From: Psychrobium sp.
GTDB taxonomy: Bacteria > Pseudomonadota > Gammaproteobacteria > Enterobacterales > Psychrobiaceae
Reading direction: 5' to 3'
NCBI GenBank assembly: GCA_013214905.1
Contig: JABSRV010000007.1
Coordinates: 24,220 to 57,657, forward strand
Length of the DNA: 33,438 nt
Part shown: positions 11,680 through 20,646 of the stretch, one piece after another
Numbering within the stretch: position 1 is the first letter of the stretch
Layout: each line of letters begins with the position of its first letter
Notes under the pieces: model-generated
What the model was told of the DNA's origin: nothing
The model's database searches: none
What the model saw: only the letters and a program-made list of their open reading frames with translations
Position numbers and translations under genes: made by a program

Positions 11680-12399
11680 ATGAATACTGAAAACACATCA
11701 TCACCAATGGCGATGGTCGATATATTTGTCGCTCCTAAATCAGTTTTCGATAATCTTTTAGGCAACGGAAAATGGGCATGGTTGAGTTTATTGCTAATTA
11801 TTGCAGTGTTGGTAGGTAGCCAAATTGCATTTTTCAGTGGCATGTCAAGCGACTGGATCGTTGAGCAGCAATTAGCTCAAGCAGGAGAAATGACGGCTTC
11901 AGAGGCTGCGCAAGCACGAGAAGGCATGACCATGATGGCCGAATATACCGGCATCATCGCTTCTATAGCTGGTTCTATCATTTTTGTTATCCTGACCGCT
12001 CTCAGTGCGGCTTATTACATGGTAATAAGCAACGTTGCTGCCACTAAGACACCTGAATTTAGTTTTGGAAATTGGTTTACTTTTGCCGTTTGGACGCAAA
12101 TGCCAACCATTATTAATACCATTGGATTTATTGTGTTATTCGCTGGCGCTAATACGGCGGATTTACCGCTAACCTTAGGAAGTTATGCATCGGTTAATCA
12201 ATTGTTTCTGTCTTACGTACCTGGTGACGCACTGTTTAATTGGGCTGAAACGTTAAATCTATTTTTAATCTGGGGCATTGCATTAGCGGCGATTGGTTTT
12301 AACCGTTGTTGTGACATGTCAGCGGCTAAATCGATTTTCTTCGCTGTACTACCTAGTCTAGTTATCTTTGGTGTTTGGTTTGGCATAGCTGCATCTTAA
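11680..12399 (+). CDS. Yip1-family polytopic membrane protein
   Basis: A 239-residue inner-membrane protein with about five membrane segments: residues about 33-53, 88-112, 129-152, 188-208 and 215-237. The N-terminus (MAMVDIFVAPKSVFDNLLGNGKWAWLSLLL) matches the start of bacterial YIP1/DUF1282-type proteins, where a short amphipathic piece with P-x-x-x-F precedes the first helix. Ribosome site aagga lies 8 bases before the ATG. Function in bacteria is not established for this family. It is separated from the downstream efflux-type operon by a strong hairpin at 12433-12479, so it is probably its own transcription unit. Confidence 0.8.
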   Translation: MNTENTSSPMAMVDIFVAPKSVFDNLLGNGKWAWLSLLLIIAVLVGSQIAFFSGMSSDWIVEQQLAQAGEMTASEAAQAREGMTMMAEYTGIIASIAGSIIFVILTALSAAYYMVISNVAATKTPEFSFGNWFTFAVWTQMPTIINTIGFIVLFAGANTADLPLTLGSYASVNQLFLSYVPGDALFNWAETLNLFLIWGIALAAIGFNRCCDMSAAKSIFFAVLPSLVIFGVWFGIAAS

Positions 12400-12432
12400 G
12401 TAATCCACTGTTAAATCATCATTACCTATAAA

Positions 12433-12479
12433 TAAGGGGCTTATACTCATGACCATAGATTATGGGTATAAGCCCCTTA
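12433..12479. terminator. Strong hairpin, probable terminator or structured repeat
   Basis: Perfect 14-bp arms taaggggcttatac (12433-12446) and gtataagcccctta (12466-12479), extendable inward through one G-T pair. It lies 34 bp after the Yip1-like gene and 24 bp before the adaptor gene. The T tract after the stem is poor on the plus strand. Its core (12442-12470) matches a palindrome at 28429-28455 at 24 of 27 positions, so it may be a repeat-derived structure instead of an ordinary terminator. Confidence 0.65.
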
Positions 12480-12503
12480 CTTAGTTTCAATCGAGAGCCA
12501 ATC

Positions 12504-13646
12504 ATGAAAAAAATACTTATATTATTGCTAATTATTGGCACCGTTAGCGGGCTGGTTTATTGGAAAAAACAGCAGGGCAGTCACGCCAGTCTTGTAGTAA
12601 ACAGCGAACAAGTAAGCGAGCAAATATTATCAGACAGCATTTTGGCCTCGGGTAACTTAATTTTTAATACTCAAATTCAAATTCGATCTGAGGTCACTGG
12701 CATTGTGACCAAGGTGTTAGTGGAAGAGGGCGAGTACGTCGCCAAAGATCAGATATTAATGCAATTGGATCAAACTGCATTTTCTGCCGATGTTGCCAAT
12801 TATCAAGCGGCTGTTAACGCGCAAAAAATAGAAATCGAATTTGTCACCGAGCAAAGCTCTGACTTGCAGCGTCAATTTCGTTTAAAACAAAAATTATATC
12901 GTCAGAAACTCATTGGCTTAGACGACTTAGAGCGTTTTAGAAGTTTATTGAAAATTTCAAAAATTAAAATGAAAGCCGCTCACGAGCGTCTTAATCAAAA
13001 ATTAGCGACGTTGGCTTTTGCCGAAGACCGATTAAAGAAAACCACCTTTAGAGCATCTATGCCTGGGCTTATCGCCGCTGTTGATGTTAAGCCGGGTGAA
13101 ACCGTTATTGCCGGCACGACAAATATCATCGGTTCAGCGTTAATGACCCTTGCAGATCCTGCCACCATATTGGCTGAACTGCGTGTTGATGAAGCCGATA
13201 TTGCTAGTGTTAAAACAGGGTTAGTGGTCGAAGTATTTGCCGCCGCAGATCCTAAGCACTCTCTTAAAGGCAAAGTGGTTAGCATTGGCACGTCAGCTCG
13301 CTCTAACCGTCAAGGTTTAGGTTTATTCTTTCGGGTTAAAGTCTTGTTAGAAGATGGCACCCAGTTATTCCCAGGCATGAGCTGCCGCGCAGAAATTATT
13401 ACCGCACAAACCGAAAAATCACTGAGCGTGCCTATTGCAGCAGTGCATAAAAAAGACAAAGCCTATTTTGTATGGCTGATAAAAGATAAGAAAGTATCAA
13501 AACAAGTAGTAACAGTGGGCATGGCTACCGATACCAAGCAGCAAATATTGTCAGGATTAACCTTAGAAAATACCGTGGTTACTGGCCCTAGTCGAGTAGT
13601 TAGTAAAATGGAAGCCGGTGACCTAGTACGCAAAAAGGAAAGCTAA
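12504..13646 (+). CDS. HlyD/MacA-type periplasmic adaptor subunit
   Basis: A 380-residue membrane-fusion protein. The start is placed at the ATG at 12504 (MKKILILLLIIGTV); an in-frame ATG 14 codons upstream lies inside the 12433-12479 hairpin and is unlikely. One N-terminal membrane anchor (about 3-20), a lipoyl-like half motif VTKVLVEEGEYVAKDQILMQ, a coiled-coil hairpin (about 95-180, QLKQ/RQKLIGLDDLERFR region), a second lipoyl half with PGLIAAVDVKPGETV, and a beta-barrel domain. It should bridge the inner-membrane permease to an outer-membrane channel. It ends one base before the ABC ATPase gene, fixing it in the operon with that gene, the permease and the two-component system. Confidence 0.92.
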   Translation: MKKILILLLIIGTVSGLVYWKKQQGSHASLVVNSEQVSEQILSDSILASGNLIFNTQIQIRSEVTGIVTKVLVEEGEYVAKDQILMQLDQTAFSADVANYQAAVNAQKIEIEFVTEQSSDLQRQFRLKQKLYRQKLIGLDDLERFRSLLKISKIKMKAAHERLNQKLATLAFAEDRLKKTTFRASMPGLIAAVDVKPGETVIAGTTNIIGSALMTLADPATILAELRVDEADIASVKTGLVVEVFAAADPKHSLKGKVVSIGTSARSNRQGLGLFFRVKVLLEDGTQLFPGMSCRAEIITAQTEKSLSVPIAAVHKKDKAYFVWLIKDKKVSKQVVTVGMATDTKQQILSGLTLENTVVTGPSRVVSKMEAGDLVRKKES

Positions 13647-13647
13647 G

Positions 13648-14367
13648 ATGAATGATTCAACAACTAACGTTATCGAACTCAAACATATCACTAAAAACTA
13701 TCCGATGGCCGACGAAGACTTTCTGGCGTTAAATGACGTCAATTTAAGCATCAAAAAAAATGACTACGTCGCTATTACTGGCCCCTCAGGATCTGGTAAG
13801 TCGACCTTAATGAATATTCTGGGTTGTTTAGATCAACCAAGCGACGGTGAATATTGGTTAGACAAACAAAATGTAGCCACTAAAACCGAAACGCAATTGG
13901 CTGAAATTCGTAATAAGGGCGTTGGTTTTATATTTCAGAGTTTTAACTTATTACCACGCGCCAGTGTCTTGCAAAATGTGATGCAGCCATTGGTTTATAG
14001 AATGATGCCCGCAGCTGAGCGTAAAAAGTTAGCATTAGAGGCGCTAGAACGGGTAGGGCTTAGTAGTAAAGTAACTAGTCTACCCAATCAACTCTCTGGT
14101 GGTCAGCGTCAACGTGTCGCCATTGCACGAGCTTTAGTAACCAAACCCGCGATCATTCTAGGTGATGAGCCCACCGGTAATTTAGACAGCAAGACTTCGC
14201 GCGACATCATGGCGTTATTCGATCAATTGCATCAACAAGGGCATACCATCATCTTAGTAACCCATGAAGCGGATATCGCTAATCATTGCCAACGCATTAT
14301 TAGGTTAGTCGACGGTGTTATTGAAAGCGATATACGTAAGCAACAAGGGGAGTTGAGTCATGCTTAA
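13648..14367 (+). CDS. ABC transporter ATP-binding protein, MacB/LolD type
   Basis: A 239-residue ATPase with all motifs of the exporter family that pairs with FtsX-like permeases: Walker A GPSGSGKST (about residues 45-53), Q-loop in FIFQSFNLLPRASVLQNV, signature LSGGQRQRVAIARAL, Walker B ILGDEPTGNLD and the H-loop in ILVTHEADI. Ribosome site aagga precedes the ATG. It overlaps the permease gene by 8 bases, which implies coupled translation of the two halves. The substrate cannot be read from the sequence; relatives export macrolides, peptides, lipoproteins or siderophores. The neighbouring LytS/LytTR pair suggests inducible export. Confidence 0.95.
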   Translation: MNDSTTNVIELKHITKNYPMADEDFLALNDVNLSIKKNDYVAITGPSGSGKSTLMNILGCLDQPSDGEYWLDKQNVATKTETQLAEIRNKGVGFIFQSFNLLPRASVLQNVMQPLVYRMMPAAERKKLALEALERVGLSSKVTSLPNQLSGGQRQRVAIARALVTKPAIILGDEPTGNLDSKTSRDIMALFDQLHQQGHTIILVTHEADIANHCQRIIRLVDGVIESDIRKQQGELSHA

Positions 14368-15598
14368 AACAATGCACATATTTTTTGAGGCAAGCAAAGC
14401 GGCGATGCAAGCGATAACCGCACATGGTATGCGCAGCGCATTAACCACCTTGGGTATTGTGATTGGTGTCGGCGCAGTTATTACAGTGGTGGCTATCATG
14501 GAAGGACTCAGTGCCAATATTACTAGCCAGCTCGATGACTTAGGCAGCGACATGGTCACGTTACGCGCTTATACAGACCCCGAGCAAGAAATGCTTGGTT
14601 TTAGCAATAAGGTCAGTTACGAAGACTTCTTGTTATTAAAAAGCAAAGCCGACAATGTGACGGATATGACCGCTACCATGCGCGCCTTTTCTTTGGGGTC
14701 TAGTGTGCAATATGGTCGCTCAACCACCCAAACACAAATTATTGGTACCGACAGCAGTTATCAAAACGTGGTGCATATTTATCCAGAGTTAGGGCGGTTC
14801 TTATCTGAAAGCGATGATTTAAAACGACGCCGTGTTGCATTCATTGGTAGTTCGGTGGCTAAAAAACTAAAAATGCCACCAGATCCTACGGGACAGTTTA
14901 TTAACCTAAGCGGCGATTGGTTTCGAGTCATAGGTGTTGCTGAAACACGTGGCAGCTTGTTTGGCTTCGATCAAGACAACTATATTATCGCGCCATTTAG
15001 TACTATTCGTTCATTAAACGGTAGTCAGGCCACTGATAATATTGATATTATGTTTCGACCACAAAGTGATGCGTCGTTAACGGACATCAAAATTCAAATG
15101 CGTCAAATATTACGTCAAAAGCATAAATTGTTGGATGATGATCCCGACCATTTTGAGTTTCACAGTGCTGAAAAAACCAAAAAACAGTTTGCCAGCATTA
15201 CCACCTCGGTGACCTTGGTGGCTTCTGGTGTGGTCAGTATCAGCTTATTGGTCGGTGGCATTGGCATCATGAATATTATGTTGGTGTCGGTTACCGAGCG
15301 TACCAAAGAAATTGGTATCGCCAAAGCATTAGGCGCTACGCCGCAGTTTATTTTGCTGCAATTTTTAATCGAGGCATTAATATTGTCGTTATTTGGCGGA
15401 GTAATGGGGCTGTTATTAGGTTACGGCTTAGCCTCAATGGTCTCTATGATGATGCCCGGCTCTAGTAGCGTATTAGTACCATTATGGGCCATTGGTTTAT
15501 CGTTTGGTTTTACCACCGCCATCGGTGTTATTTTTGGACTAGCGCCTGCCATCAAAGCCGCCAAGTTAAATCCTGTTGACGCCTTAAGATATGAGTAA
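14360..15598 (+). CDS. MacB/FtsX-type ABC transporter permease
   Basis: A 412-residue permease: one N-terminal membrane helix (about residues 25-50, with RSALTTLGIVIGVGAVITVVAI, the standard MacB start), a large periplasmic domain (about 50-285), then three helices at about 288-312 (ends with the GIGIMNIMLVSVTERTKEIG motif), 335-362 and 375-398. The C-terminal AIKAAKLNPVDALRYE is the family's typical ending. This is the mechanotransmission type of ABC system with a periplasmic adaptor and tripartite channel. The ATPase is a separate gene, unlike MacB proper, which is fused. Ribosome site gggg-ag sits inside the ATPase gene end. Confidence 0.95.
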   Translation: MLKTMHIFFEASKAAMQAITAHGMRSALTTLGIVIGVGAVITVVAIMEGLSANITSQLDDLGSDMVTLRAYTDPEQEMLGFSNKVSYEDFLLLKSKADNVTDMTATMRAFSLGSSVQYGRSTTQTQIIGTDSSYQNVVHIYPELGRFLSESDDLKRRRVAFIGSSVAKKLKMPPDPTGQFINLSGDWFRVIGVAETRGSLFGFDQDNYIIAPFSTIRSLNGSQATDNIDIMFRPQSDASLTDIKIQMRQILRQKHKLLDDDPDHFEFHSAEKTKKQFASITTSVTLVASGVVSISLLVGGIGIMNIMLVSVTERTKEIGIAKALGATPQFILLQFLIEALILSLFGGVMGLLLGYGLASMVSMMMPGSSSVLVPLWAIGLSFGFTTAIGVIFGLAPAIKAAKLNPVDALRYE

Positions 15599-15607
15599 AA
15601 AATAACT

Positions 15608-16735
15608 ATGTTTTCATTACAATTAGTAAAAAATGGCTTGTTGAAAAGCTTGGCTGTTTCACGTCATACGAGCAAAGGTTACAAGATCGCGACCTTTGTT
15701 TTATTGCTCGTTGCGTTCAGCATAAATTACTCGGTATTCCAGGCTATTGTGGTGGCAAATAAAGAGCTGAATCTGACTTCGGTAATGTTGATAGCGTTAT
15801 TAGATCCGCTAATTTTCTTAACTAGCATGCATTTTATCGTGCGACCGTTTTTAAAATTAAAGCTGCTCAATGCTGGATTTAGCAAATTGTTGCTCTTACA
15901 GTTGCTAGTTTGTTTTCTTATTGAGGCTGTGGTGAGTACAACTCTTAATATCAGCATATTACAGCTTGAGTATTTTAAAGGATTGGATTTTCATGAATTC
16001 AAAATGAGCGTGCCTGATGGCGAAGTTAAAATGCAAATGGATAAACTGTCTTACTTATTGATAGATATAGTAAATAGTATTCTTTTAGCCTTTGTTTGGA
16101 GCATTTTTTACATGTTTTGGCACATGCAAGCCGGGCGTAAAAAAATGAAACAAGAACTGCACCGCGCGCAAATACAGCAATTAACCAATCAACTAAATCC
16201 TCACTTTTTATTTAATGCGTTTAACAGCATTCGCGCGCTAATTTATGAAGATCAAGATAAAGCGGCTGATACGGTCACTCAATTAGCAGAACTGTTTAGA
16301 ACGCATTTACAGGCGCATCTTAAGGCTAAATCAAGCTTAGAAGAAGAGTGGCAAGTGTGCAGTCGTTATTTAGCCATTGAAAAAATTCGCTTGGAAGAAC
16401 GTCTGCAATTAGAGATTGAAATTGACGATGCGTTACTCATGCAGAAATTACCCACCTTGAGCTTGTTAACCCTTATTGAAAATGCAATTAAACATGGCAT
16501 ATCACCAAGCAGTCAACCAGGTTTTATCAAAGTCAGCGCTAGTAAAACCAGCGATAAATGTTGGAATTTATGTATTGTTAATAGCGTCAGACAGCAATCT
16601 AATGCAGCGGGTACTAATACAGGCATCATTAACATTAAAAAGCGTTTGCAACTGATGTACGGTGAAAATTATTGCTGGCAGCAAAGCAGCGAAAACAATC
16701 AATTTACGGTAAATATGGAGCTTCCCCTTGCTTAA
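15608..16735 (+). CDS. LytS/YehU-type sensor histidine kinase
   Basis: A 375-residue kinase with about four N-terminal membrane helices (within residues 24-175), a short coiled segment and a His_kinase domain of the LytS class. The phosphorylatable histidine is H199 in QLNPHFLFNAFNSIRALI, followed by the LAELFRTHLQ segment and an ATPase part with TLIENAIKHGIS (N box) and a G-rich NTGIINIKKRLQLMYG. It starts 9 bp after the permease gene with a weak ribosome site and overlaps the response regulator by 8 bp. No extracytoplasmic sensor domain of size is visible, so it probably senses through its membrane domain or through the transporter. Confidence 0.93.
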   Translation: MFSLQLVKNGLLKSLAVSRHTSKGYKIATFVLLLVAFSINYSVFQAIVVANKELNLTSVMLIALLDPLIFLTSMHFIVRPFLKLKLLNAGFSKLLLLQLLVCFLIEAVVSTTLNISILQLEYFKGLDFHEFKMSVPDGEVKMQMDKLSYLLIDIVNSILLAFVWSIFYMFWHMQAGRKKMKQELHRAQIQQLTNQLNPHFLFNAFNSIRALIYEDQDKAADTVTQLAELFRTHLQAHLKAKSSLEEEWQVCSRYLAIEKIRLEERLQLEIEIDDALLMQKLPTLSLLTLIENAIKHGISPSSQPGFIKVSASKTSDKCWNLCIVNSVRQQSNAAGTNTGIINIKKRLQLMYGENYCWQQSSENNQFTVNMELPLA

Positions 16736-17462
16736 TGTATTGATAGTTGACGATGAACGTTTAGCGCGCGTTGAATTAAAACGCCTGCTGGCGAAAATCC
16801 CGCAAGTCAATGTCGTTGCCGAGGCTAACGGCGCTGCACAAGCACTTGAATTGTTAGAAGAACATGATATTGATTTGGTTTTTCTAGATATACAAATGCC
16901 AGAAATGGATGGATTGCAATTGGCTGATAAAATTGACCCGTCAATCCAGTTTGTATTTTGCACCGCATTTAACGAACATGCGGTAGATGCATTTTCTCTA
17001 AACGCGGTCGATTATATTGTGAAGCCTATCAACCCTGATCGCTTGTTGAGGACAATAGCGCGTGTCCAACAATCCATAGAAGAAAAGGCTGAGCAGTCTA
17101 ACAAAGAGATCATCAGTTACTTACCAGACAACCATGGCCTGTTACTTAAATTTGGTGACAGCAGTAAAATAGTCAGGCTGCAAGATGTCGAGCGCTTTGA
17201 ATCAATCGGTAATCATGTGGCTGTTTACACCCCCGCTGGAAAATCTTACATTCATTCGTCTTTAAGTAAGGTCGAACAACGACTTGATCCTGCGTTGTTC
17301 TTTAAAGCGAGCCGCAGTGAAATAATTAGAGTGGATAACATTAAATGCATTGAAGATGGCATGGCTACTGGCAGTTTGTTGGCGATTATGAATTCAGGAA
17401 AAACCATTGACGTTAGCCGCCGCCAAGCACAGCAATTAAAAAAATTGTTTAATGTTTGGTAG
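16728..17462 (+). CDS. LytTR-family response regulator
   Basis: A 244-residue regulator starting at TTG, with atggag as ribosome site inside the kinase gene. Receiver domain at 1-120: acidic pair DD at 8-9, phospho-acceptor D54 in LVFLDIQMPEMDG, T in FCTAFNEHA and K in DYIVKPI. LytTR DNA-binding domain at about 140-243 (KFGDSSKIVRLQDVERFES, YIHSSLSKVEQRLDPALFFKASRSEIIRVDNI). Transcriptional output is therefore on direct-repeat LytTR sites, probably including this operon's own promoter. It is the final gene of the five-gene transporter operon. Confidence 0.95.
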   Translation: MLNVLIVDDERLARVELKRLLAKIPQVNVVAEANGAAQALELLEEHDIDLVFLDIQMPEMDGLQLADKIDPSIQFVFCTAFNEHAVDAFSLNAVDYIVKPINPDRLLRTIARVQQSIEEKAEQSNKEIISYLPDNHGLLLKFGDSSKIVRLQDVERFESIGNHVAVYTPAGKSYIHSSLSKVEQRLDPALFFKASRSEIIRVDNIKCIEDGMATGSLLAIMNSGKTIDVSRRQAQQLKKLFNVW

Positions 17463-17549
17463 ATTGTTTTATCGCAAGTAAGTTGTAACAAAAACGTTGC
17501 TAAAAGGCCACTAATAGTCACATAATAGTTTTCGTAAAATTACTTCTAT

Positions 17550-17635
17550 AAAATGGCAAACCACCCGAAAGGTTGAGACGCAAAGCCACCGGTCTAATGG
17601 GATTTCCCAATGATAGCGGAGCTACCAATAATGCA
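17550..17635 (+). promoter_or_regulatory. Cyclic-di-GMP-I (GEMM-I) riboswitch
   Basis: The segment contains the hallmark core of GEMM-I RNAs: ggcaaacc followed by a GAAA tetraloop hairpin (cacccgaaaggttg), then gacgcaaagccaccggtct, a variable second hairpin (tgggatttccca) and the tetraloop-receptor side tagcggagctacca. It agrees with the Vibrio cholerae Vc2 aptamer in order and in the conserved bases. It lies in the leader of the TraF-like gene, about 145 bp before its ATG, on the same strand. Immediately after it come a small hairpin (taatgc/gcatta, 17629-17645) and a pyrimidine stretch complementary to the downstream ribosome site. Binding of c-di-GMP should therefore control the two-gene operon at 17781-20646. 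Confidence 0.92.
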
Positions 17636-17780
17636 TTACGCATTAGTCTTTCCTTTGTTATATGTCAGCCATCTTAACTAAAATAAATGCTGGTATATGC
17701 AAGCTTCTTTGTAAAAAGATACTCCTTGAATATTACCTGTAACGATCTCTCGACAGTTTATTAACAAGGACTATTGTCTT

Positions 17781-19046
17781 ATGAAATTATTCAAACTCGC
17801 CCCTTTAGCGTTGCTATGCAGTGCAACCGCATTTGCTGGACAAGGCGATCAAGTGGGCAATTCTCGCTACAGTGTTTCTACCCTCAATGCTCACGCATAT
17901 AACGGTGTCAATGTTGCAAGCGTTAATGCACACCTAAAACAATCAATCTCCTTTGCTTTTATGACCTCAATACGTGCCGGGATTGAAATGGGCGAGGCGG
18001 ATTTTGCCGACGATATGGAAGATCTCATTGATGACTTAGATCGAGATGATTTAACCCTAGATGAAGCAAATAGCTTAATAGAGCGTTTTGACAAAGTATT
18101 AGCAGACGCTGGTGAGAACGGTTATGTCAATTTACAGGGTGGGCTTGAACTGCCTCTATCCATATTATGGAAAAGAGAGATCGATACCATTAGTTTTTCT
18201 ACCCGTGCTTATGGCAATGTAGGCATCAAAATACTTGATGATAAACTGCGTTATAACCCGGTGCAACAATCTATAGGCACCAATGCCGCGGGTTATATAA
18301 AAGTTGCCGATATGACAGAAGTATCGCTGGCTTATAGCCGGTTGGTTTGGAATAACTCTGAAGGTGATCTTCACGCCGGTGTACGAGCCAATCTGCAAAG
18401 TTTAGGCTTATCAAAACAAGTTATTAGCTTTGAAAACGCTGATAGCGATGATGATATTGGTGATATATTTTTAGATGATTATGAAGATGGTCGTGTTACT
18501 AGTACTCAACTAGCTATCGATATGTCGGTATATTGGGCGGCAAAAAATTATAATATTGGCCTTACCTTATCCAATATTAACGAACCAGAATTTGAATATA
18601 CCAAGCTAGGCCAGAATTGCGCCGATAAAACCGAGCAATTTACCCGAGATAACTGTTACGTTGCGTTAGGTTTTAGCGACCGTATAGCATTAGAAGAGAC
18701 CTATATAGCCAATAGTTACGCCACTGTGCAAGCTAACTATTTTAATGACGAATATGGCATTAGCTTAGATGTGAGTTACGAAACAGAACACAATACGCCA
18801 CTAGGCGATAGAGAACAGTGGATGACCGCTTCAGTTTCTGCTTCACCAGACTCCATCTTTGTTCCTAATGCACGATTAACATATTCTAATAACTTGGTTG
18901 GCAGTAAACTTAGTTACATATCGGGTGAGCTAACTTGGGGCTGGTTAGGGTTTGGCGCTGGTTATGCGCTTGATAAGACTACCGTAGATGGTGATGAAAT
19001 ACCGCGCGGTGGTTTTATTAACTTGTCTATTAGCAATCAATTTTAA
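17781..19046 (+). CDS. TraF-like (TraF_2 family) outer-membrane protein
   Basis: A 421-residue exported protein with a clear signal peptide (MKLFKLAPLALLCSATAFA, cut after residue 19). The rest alternates short amphipathic strands and ends in a terminal phenylalanine (SISNQF), as expected of an outer-membrane beta-barrel. Segments such as LADAGENGYVNLQGGLELPL and the IDMSVYWAAKNYNIGLTLSNINEPEFEY block resemble chromosomal proteins annotated as conjugal transfer protein TraF; no conjugation genes are near, so that label should not be taken as function. It is preceded by a c-di-GMP riboswitch and followed after 10 bp by a lipoprotein gene. A surface or biofilm-related role is inferred from the riboswitch only. 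Confidence 0.78.
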   Translation: MKLFKLAPLALLCSATAFAGQGDQVGNSRYSVSTLNAHAYNGVNVASVNAHLKQSISFAFMTSIRAGIEMGEADFADDMEDLIDDLDRDDLTLDEANSLIERFDKVLADAGENGYVNLQGGLELPLSILWKREIDTISFSTRAYGNVGIKILDDKLRYNPVQQSIGTNAAGYIKVADMTEVSLAYSRLVWNNSEGDLHAGVRANLQSLGLSKQVISFENADSDDDIGDIFLDDYEDGRVTSTQLAIDMSVYWAAKNYNIGLTLSNINEPEFEYTKLGQNCADKTEQFTRDNCYVALGFSDRIALEETYIANSYATVQANYFNDEYGISLDVSYETEHNTPLGDREQWMTASVSASPDSIFVPNARLTYSNNLVGSKLSYISGELTWGWLGFGAGYALDKTTVDGDEIPRGGFINLSISNQF

Positions 19047-19056
19047 GGAGTCAATG

Positions 19057-20646
19057 ATGAAATTTACTAAACATATCGTAGCACTAAGTATTATCAGTGC
19101 ACTCATGGGTTGCTCGCCTGAAGATCAAGACATTGCTAATACAGACGAAGCTAGCTCCAATATTGCAGTAAGCGGTGCGGTGATCGACCCCTTCATCACC
19201 GGCGCTATCGTGTTTGCTGATTATGATAATGATGGCGTACTAGATACCTTTGAACCTTGGGCTTATACCGATGCTTACGGCTTTTATGGTAGCAGTAAAG
19301 AAGGTGAAGATTATTGTACGACCAAGCCTAAATATTGTTTAAATATTTCGGCGCAAGTGGCCAAAGATGGTCCGGTAAAATTAGTCGCCGTAGGTGGTTA
19401 CGACTTAACGACTTATCAAAAAGTTAAAACTCGTTTAAGCCGTTATTTCACCAGTGGAGAATTTCAGGCTATAACACCGTTGACCAGCGTTAGTGATATG
19501 AAAGTTAGCGACGAATATGATTATCTCTCAGGTAATAATTTTATAGAAAAAGCGTTTGTTAACGCTGAAGATACTCAGGCGTTTAAATTAGCATTTACCT
19601 TGCATAAGATTATTGAAATTATAAATTCGTTTGTTATTCAAAAGTTTCCTGAGGTTGGCGACAACGAATTATTGCCAAGTGATGCGTCAGGCTTTGTTTA
19701 TGATGCATTAAATAAACTTGGTAAAGAGCAAAACTTGTCAGTGCAATCGTTTATTGAAAATGTCACCGAAGAGCAAATTGTGACCATGCTAGAAGTTATT
19801 AGTGTTGAGATTCGCGCCGCATACTTAATTGCAGATATCAGCCCTAGTATCAAGTCAAATAGGGGCCAACATAAAAGAATGACTACGGCAGAAATTGTGG
19901 GCGGAGCGGTAGTTGTTGGTGCCGCCGTCGTTTCAGAGGCCGTAGACGAAATTGATGAAGGTATCAGCGATGATACAGAGCGTCGGGAGTTTGCGCTTAA
20001 AGCTGCGGCAAGAATAGGGCAAATATTAGCGAATAGAATTGTTGAAAAAATTAAGGTTGCTAAAGATGGTGACGAAATTAAAGAAGATGCATATATTAAT
20101 GTTGTTAAAAATGCAGTCAAAGATATTATTGACCTAGTAAAAATCGACGACTTTGACGTGTCTAGTATCAACACATCCAGCAATGTTGATGATGTTCGTC
20201 AGCTATTAATTGCGTTAGAAAAAGCCACAAATAAAACCAAATTACCAGAATCATTGGCTCAAATGCAATTAACAATGATTGATGAGTCAAAAGATACCAG
20301 TGCTAAGATAAGCATGTTTTTTAGCGGTAATACTGGTGAGCAACAAGAAGGCAAGTTGGTGATGTGTGTGCGTTATAAAGATCTTGATGATCCAGGAAAT
20401 TCAGAAAATACGGAAGGTGCTCAGCTGGAAGGAACATGGCAAACGATTAGTAATCAATTGTTTATTACGGCCGAATTCGCCAATTCTGAACGAGTACTAA
20501 GAGTCAAAACCAAAGAAAATAATAACTTTGTATTTGATTACGATGGCGACGAGACCATTTGGCCATCGGTGAACGGTTTTACTGTATTTGAGGGCTCTGC
20601 GCCAACAACAGATCAGCAATGTAAAGATTGGTTTAGTCAAATGTAA
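19057..20646 (+). CDS. Hypothetical lipoprotein with a calcium-loop-like motif
   Basis: A 529-residue lipoprotein starting at the second of two adjacent ATGs, 6 bases after aaggag. The signal peptide ends in ALMGCSP, with the lipidated cysteine at about residue 18. Early in the mature part a stretch reads VSGAVIDPFITGAIVFADYDNDGVLDTFEPWAYTD (split in three blocks), with a DxDNDG loop like those in dockerin or calcium-binding envelope proteins. A long helical middle follows, with an Ala/Val/Gly-rich piece (VGGAVVVGAAVVSEAVDEID) and a cysteine-containing C-terminal beta-rich part. I do not recognise the family. It is co-transcribed with the TraF-like gene, and hence probably under the same riboswitch. 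Confidence 0.75.
   Translation: MKFTKHIVALSIISALMGCSPEDQDIANTDEASSNIAVSGAVIDPFITGAIVFADYDNDGVLDTFEPWAYTDAYGFYGSSKEGEDYCTTKPKYCLNISAQVAKDGPVKLVAVGGYDLTTYQKVKTRLSRYFTSGEFQAITPLTSVSDMKVSDEYDYLSGNNFIEKAFVNAEDTQAFKLAFTLHKIIEIINSFVIQKFPEVGDNELLPSDASGFVYDALNKLGKEQNLSVQSFIENVTEEQIVTMLEVISVEIRAAYLIADISPSIKSNRGQHKRMTTAEIVGGAVVVGAAVVSEAVDEIDEGISDDTERREFALKAAARIGQILANRIVEKIKVAKDGDEIKEDAYINVVKNAVKDIIDLVKIDDFDVSSINTSSNVDDVRQLLIALEKATNKTKLPESLAQMQLTMIDESKDTSAKISMFFSGNTGEQQEGKLVMCVRYKDLDDPGNSENTEGAQLEGTWQTISNQLFITAEFANSERVLRVKTKENNNFVFDYDGDETIWPSVNGFTVFEGSAPTTDQQCKDWFSQM

Follow-up and report, generated by a model that had tools for sequence, protein, structure and literature searches.

Class-I c-di-GMP riboswitches and the present locus

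Class-I riboswitches sense c-di-GMP, the bacterial signal to settle. They are known as GEMM, a name that stands for environment, membranes and motility, and the two of V. cholerae act in opposite directions, neither via termination (PMC6366702). The bases of Vc2 that touch the ligand comprise G20, A47 and C92 (PMC4744006). The switch described here lies in the window, the whole stretch of 33,438 nucleotides that was analysed, and resembles V. cholerae Vc1 (gbpA) and Vc2 (tfoY) in its full-length aptamer match, in the equivalents of the three Vc2 contacts, and in the envelope or secreted protein genes typically found downstream. It differs from them in preceding the genes of a TraF_2 barrel and a lipoprotein, in an expression platform that is not recognisable, and in ligand binding that is predicted. 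Since class-I switches usually precede genes for secreted or envelope proteins, what is new here is the target, the switch itself being of a known class.

The explanation that we favour, and consider probable, is that a riboswitch in the leader controls a two-gene operon encoding the TraF_2 barrel and its partner lipoprotein, the pair being old and the switch specific to one lineage. The literature searched does not treat the pair as a unit, and it yielded no papers on this pair under c-di-GMP or on PF13729, the TraF_2 family, and no function for that family; the regulator itself is of an ordinary kind. The point of interest is a conserved pair with an apparent switch acquisition in a single lineage, and not a new class of c-di-GMP component.

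The aptamer

17545-17629, + strand: c-di-GMP-I (GEMM-I) riboswitch aptamer, RF01051 match, with contacts G17556, A17582 and C17625

The covariance-model search on which the earlier note had staked its proposal of a well-formed GEMM-I aptamer returned a canonical match to RF01051 that spans the full model (positions 1-87) with 74.1 bits and an E-value of 5.9e-13, against a gathering score of 35 bits; the proposal stands, with the start of the aptamer moved from 17550 to 17545. The equivalents of Vc2 G20, A47 and C92, mapped with the conserved GGCAAACC, GACGCAAAGC and UACC strings as anchors, are all kept (3/3), and the G at the first contact position is the base that we take to separate c-di-GMP binders from cGAMP-binding variants. 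No second match to RF01051 was found in the source genome (an assembly of 3.89 Mb in 447 contigs, about 94% completeness), which also contains 41 matches to the GGDEF domain, so that c-di-GMP is very probably made by the source organism.

The TraF_2 barrel and its partner lipoprotein

17781-19046, + strand: TraF_2 protein P0001, 421 aa (PF13729), with signal peptide and C-terminal Phe, a predicted outer-membrane β-barrel
19057-20646, + strand: lipoprotein P0002, 529 aa, with lipobox Cys19, starting 10 nt after the barrel gene
19219-19254, + strand: EF-hand-like loop DYDNDGVLDTFE, P0002 residues 55-66, by motif match

P0001 matches PF13729 with 123.7 bits (cut-off 25) over 258 of the 264 model positions, and both its signal peptide and its terminal Phe are evident in the sequence. 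The AlphaFold model, built on an alignment of four sequences, is of low confidence (mean pLDDT 51); its best structural matches are the outer-membrane barrels FhaC, CdiB, CymA, PelB and OmpG (Z at most 16.8), porins and secretion barrels alike, which points to an outer-membrane β-barrel. P0001 resembles PF13729 proteins in its score and in the barrel-like fold of its model, and differs in that its gene is followed by a dedicated lipoprotein gene. A further match, to PorP/SprF (PF11751), reaches 24.2 bits, barely above the Pfam cut-off of 22.3 and some 100 bits weaker than the TraF_2 match, and the NCBIfam model TIGR03519, at 24.5 bits against a cut-off of 90.55, does not place P0001 among the PorP/SprF proteins of type IX secretion.

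The Pfam name of PF13729, and nothing else, suggests that the barrel might be a true conjugation TraF, a reading to which we give next to no credence: TraF of the F plasmid (NC_002483) matches PF13728 alone, with 234 bits, whereas P0001 shows no match to PF13728 up to E = 1. The split between the two families speaks against the conjugation identity and makes the TraF name of P0001 misleading, as the earlier note had held. Its companion statement, that conjugation genes are absent, is correct for the window ORFs scanned, among which no transfer genes were found; the scanned neighbours include an ABC exporter set, a LytTR two-component pair, MnmG, a radical-SAM protein and a sigma-54 activator.

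P0002 carries the lipobox L-M-G-C19 after its signal peptide, and is thus a predicted bacterial lipoprotein. Residues 55-66 fit D-x-[DN]-x-[DN]-G-x-x-D-x-x-E, a pattern kept with substitutions in relatives, and form a putative EF-hand-like calcium loop; Cys19 and D55 are invariant in 10 aligned lipoproteins. The 529-residue lipoprotein with a Ca-loop-like motif described earlier is therefore confirmed at the level of the lipobox and the loop. No Pfam, NCBIfam or PHROG family scores above cut-off in P0002, and the sequence search found no solved homologues. With a mean pLDDT of 49 the structure model has low confidence. Searched whole, it gave no Foldseek match under E 0.001; its C-terminal part (residues ~395-510) resembles small calycin-like barrels with Z 6-8, values that the tool's stated background range also covers. 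In the favoured explanation the barrel and the lipoprotein would act together at the outer membrane, and the N-terminal Ca-loop domain of the lipoprotein would serve as an interaction module.

Distribution and genomic context of the pair

The pair is adjacent, with the barrel gene always first, in 12 of the genomes searched, including that of the window, covering at least four families and extending beyond the order. These genomes comprise (i) G000, G001, G006, G007, G009, G263 and G375 within the same order, and (ii) G660, G550, G584, G446 and G688 outside it. In the genus members G006, G007 and G009 the barrel is 63-66% identical to that of the window and the lipoprotein 36-37%, so that within the genus the rate of evolution is much higher for the lipoprotein; in G001 the pair is present with the lipoprotein cut by a contig end, in G008 the barrel start lies at a contig end, and in G263 and G375, from another family of the order, both genes are present. 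A full or long lipoprotein match was obtained in 5/369 class genomes outside the order, the gene directly upstream being a barrel relative in every case (5/5), with PF13729 in 4/4 tested. More distant barrel relatives (G187, G031, G194, G078 and G063) stand without an adjacent P0002-type gene. Behind a misleading conjugation label, then, stands a barrel-lipoprotein unit that several gammaproteobacterial groups have conserved and that merits a functional test.

Just upstream of the switch and on the same strand, positions 11680-17462 of the window encode a Yip1-domain protein, an HlyD-like adaptor, an ABC ATPase, a MacB-like permease, a LytS-type kinase and a LytTR regulator, and a similar gene order is kept in G001 (L046). 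In G001, G006 and G007 the pair follows the LytTR regulator that also precedes it in the window, with an opposite-strand gene intervening; this divergent gene had been considered as a TetR repressor, an identity ruled out since it encodes an OmpA-like barrel protein.

The pair may be an uptake or export device, a barrel pore with a lipoprotein partner serving a nutrient or a polymer, with no role in attachment and with c-di-GMP as no more than a marker of the lifestyle that employs it. This is a serious alternative, to which we nevertheless lean less than to its contrary: the barrel model resembles both porins and secretion barrels, and class-I switches of congeners precede degradative secreted proteins (an alginate lyase, an S8 peptidase, a chitin-binding-like protein), whereas no substrate gene adjoins the pair, and the neighbours differ from one genome to another. 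The link of the pair to surface attachment, for its part, would be drawn from the messenger only.

The riboswitch was found with the pair in a single species

The neighbourhood search proposed in the earlier note gave a divided answer, the pair recurring in 11 other genomes and a riboswitch being detected at none of these loci. A permissive Rfam search detected no c-di-GMP riboswitch near the barrel in G001, G006, G007, G008, G009, G263 or G375, no Rfam riboswitch was found at the five class-level loci (G660, G550, G584, G446 and G688), and the congener leaders contain no degenerate switch even at a permissive threshold. The switch accompanies the pair in one species and in 0/11 other pair genomes, which rules out that the switch is conserved together with the two genes and renders the suggested new class of c-di-GMP-regulated surface component an overstatement. 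It likewise means that comparison lends no support to the importance of regulating the pair.

The genus comparison covered ten genomes. The barrel leaders of G001, G006 and G007 are alike among themselves and hardly like that of the window, and in the barrel tree the sequence from the window branches close to the base of the group formed by the genus, its order relative to G008 not being settled. With outgroups devoid of the switch, a gain in the lineage of the window is the simplest reading, and the switch looks like a lineage-specific acquisition on an older gene pair. A genus in which the pair occurs both under a switch and free of one offers a clean case for testing how riboswitches spread to new operons.

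Leader and expression platform

17497-17526, + strand: candidate promoter TTGCTA-18-CATAAT, by consensus match; the start would fall just 5' of the aptamer
17568-17579, + strand: aptamer segment AAAGGUUGAGAC, pairing with 17646-17656 in the predicted ligand-free fold
17646-17656, + strand: candidate anti-aptamer strand GUCUUUCCUUU in the leader, from the predicted fold
17723-17770, + strand: hairpin UCCUUG...CAAGGA burying the RBS AAGGA (17766-17770), from the predicted fold

The leader extends for 151 nt between the end of the aptamer and the barrel gene. Forcing the aptamer costs ~6 kcal/mol relative to the predicted ligand-free fold, a penalty that ligand binding could plausibly outweigh; in the favoured explanation c-di-GMP would stabilise the aptamer against this alternative leader fold and thereby alter the expression of both the barrel and the lipoprotein genes.

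Three candidate platforms were considered, none of which gained support: (i) an intrinsic terminator, none being found in the leader; (ii) ligand-dependent exposure of the RBS, which stays buried whether or not the aptamer is forced (unpaired probability 0.02-0.05 in the two modelled states); and (iii) the long-range anti-aptamer duplex between 17568-17579 and 17646-17656, whose strength is reached by 129/200 shuffles and is thus not above chance. Because the V. cholerae class-I switches work in opposite directions, the ON or OFF sense cannot be carried over to the window switch; by analogy with Vc1-gbpA there is a weak lean towards a switch that is ON in response to c-di-GMP.

The aptamer might instead bind c-di-GMP without appreciable control of the pair, either because the switch has decayed or is a recent arrival and lacks a working platform, or by virtue of an internal promoter after the aptamer. 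The long leader, the want of a convincing platform within it, and a second promoter-like site 3' of the aptamer (TTGTTA-18-TAAAAT, 17655-17684) are in keeping with such uncoupling. We regard it as rather unlikely, given that the aptamer scores high, is intact and retains all ligand contacts, which one would expect to be lost from a relic, and that promoter-like sites occur at chance frequency (14 found in the region vs 11.1 expected in shuffles, not significant alone).

Class-I switches are also located 5' of S8-peptidase-type genes in L027 (G008:C192), L029 (G003:C445) and L026 (G004:C24), Pfam supporting the peptidase identity in L026. In these three loci the aptamer GGUCUACGGG can pair with the leader CCCGUAGAC, most strongly in L027, and GACUUCAC, next to the leader CCCGUAGAC, can pair with the RBS GUGGAGUC, from which OFF switches acting by RBS sequestration are predicted. 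The anti-aptamer duplex is matched by 0/200 shuffles in L027, 2/200 in L029 and, being weaker, 22/200 in L026; the strong pairing in L027 and L029 indicates that comparing pairing with shuffles detects plain platforms.

Class-I switches elsewhere in the genus and a possible origin

The targets of class-I switches in congeners comprise EF-loop lipoproteins (L019, L020, L028), a chitin-binding-like protein (L022), DUF1800 proteins, S8 peptidases and alginate lyases. Among the riboswitch loci fetched, the best DNA matches of the window aptamer are L003 (94% over 48 nt), L073 and L002, all preceding EF-loop lipoproteins. The window switch is possibly derived from those before the EF-loop lipoproteins of the same genus, a match that is suggestive only, because aptamers are short and constrained.

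The EF-loop lipoproteins under class-I switches (L002/L019, L003/L020, L010/L028 and L073) share with P0002 a signal peptide, an upstream class-I switch, and a loop, 'DGYLxGALVCLDLNNN', that resembles 'DPFITGAIVFADYDND' of P0002. They resemble P0002 in its N-terminal part only, with 31% over 81 aa and an E-value of 1.4e-4 from a small set, and their genes directly follow the switch with no intervening barrel gene, unlike P0002. A bolder proposal, which we hold tentatively and with distinctly less confidence than control of the operon as such, is that the TraF_2 barrel and the EF-loop lipoprotein constitute an unrecognised, widespread gammaproteobacterial two-component outer-membrane device, placed in this lineage under c-di-GMP control via a riboswitch captured from another lipoprotein gene. 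If true, the capture would exemplify the recruitment of a riboswitch to a new operon.

Lipoproteins with the 'DGYLxGALVCLDLNNN' loop are recurring targets of class-I riboswitches (L019, L020, L028 and L073), and no Pfam family was found in the three tested. The aptamers of L010 and L006 score best, above gathering, with the c-di-GMP-I-GGC family RF03167. Class-I switches also stand 5' of alginate-lyase-like secreted proteins in L021 and L025, with PF05426 in L025 at 93 bits.
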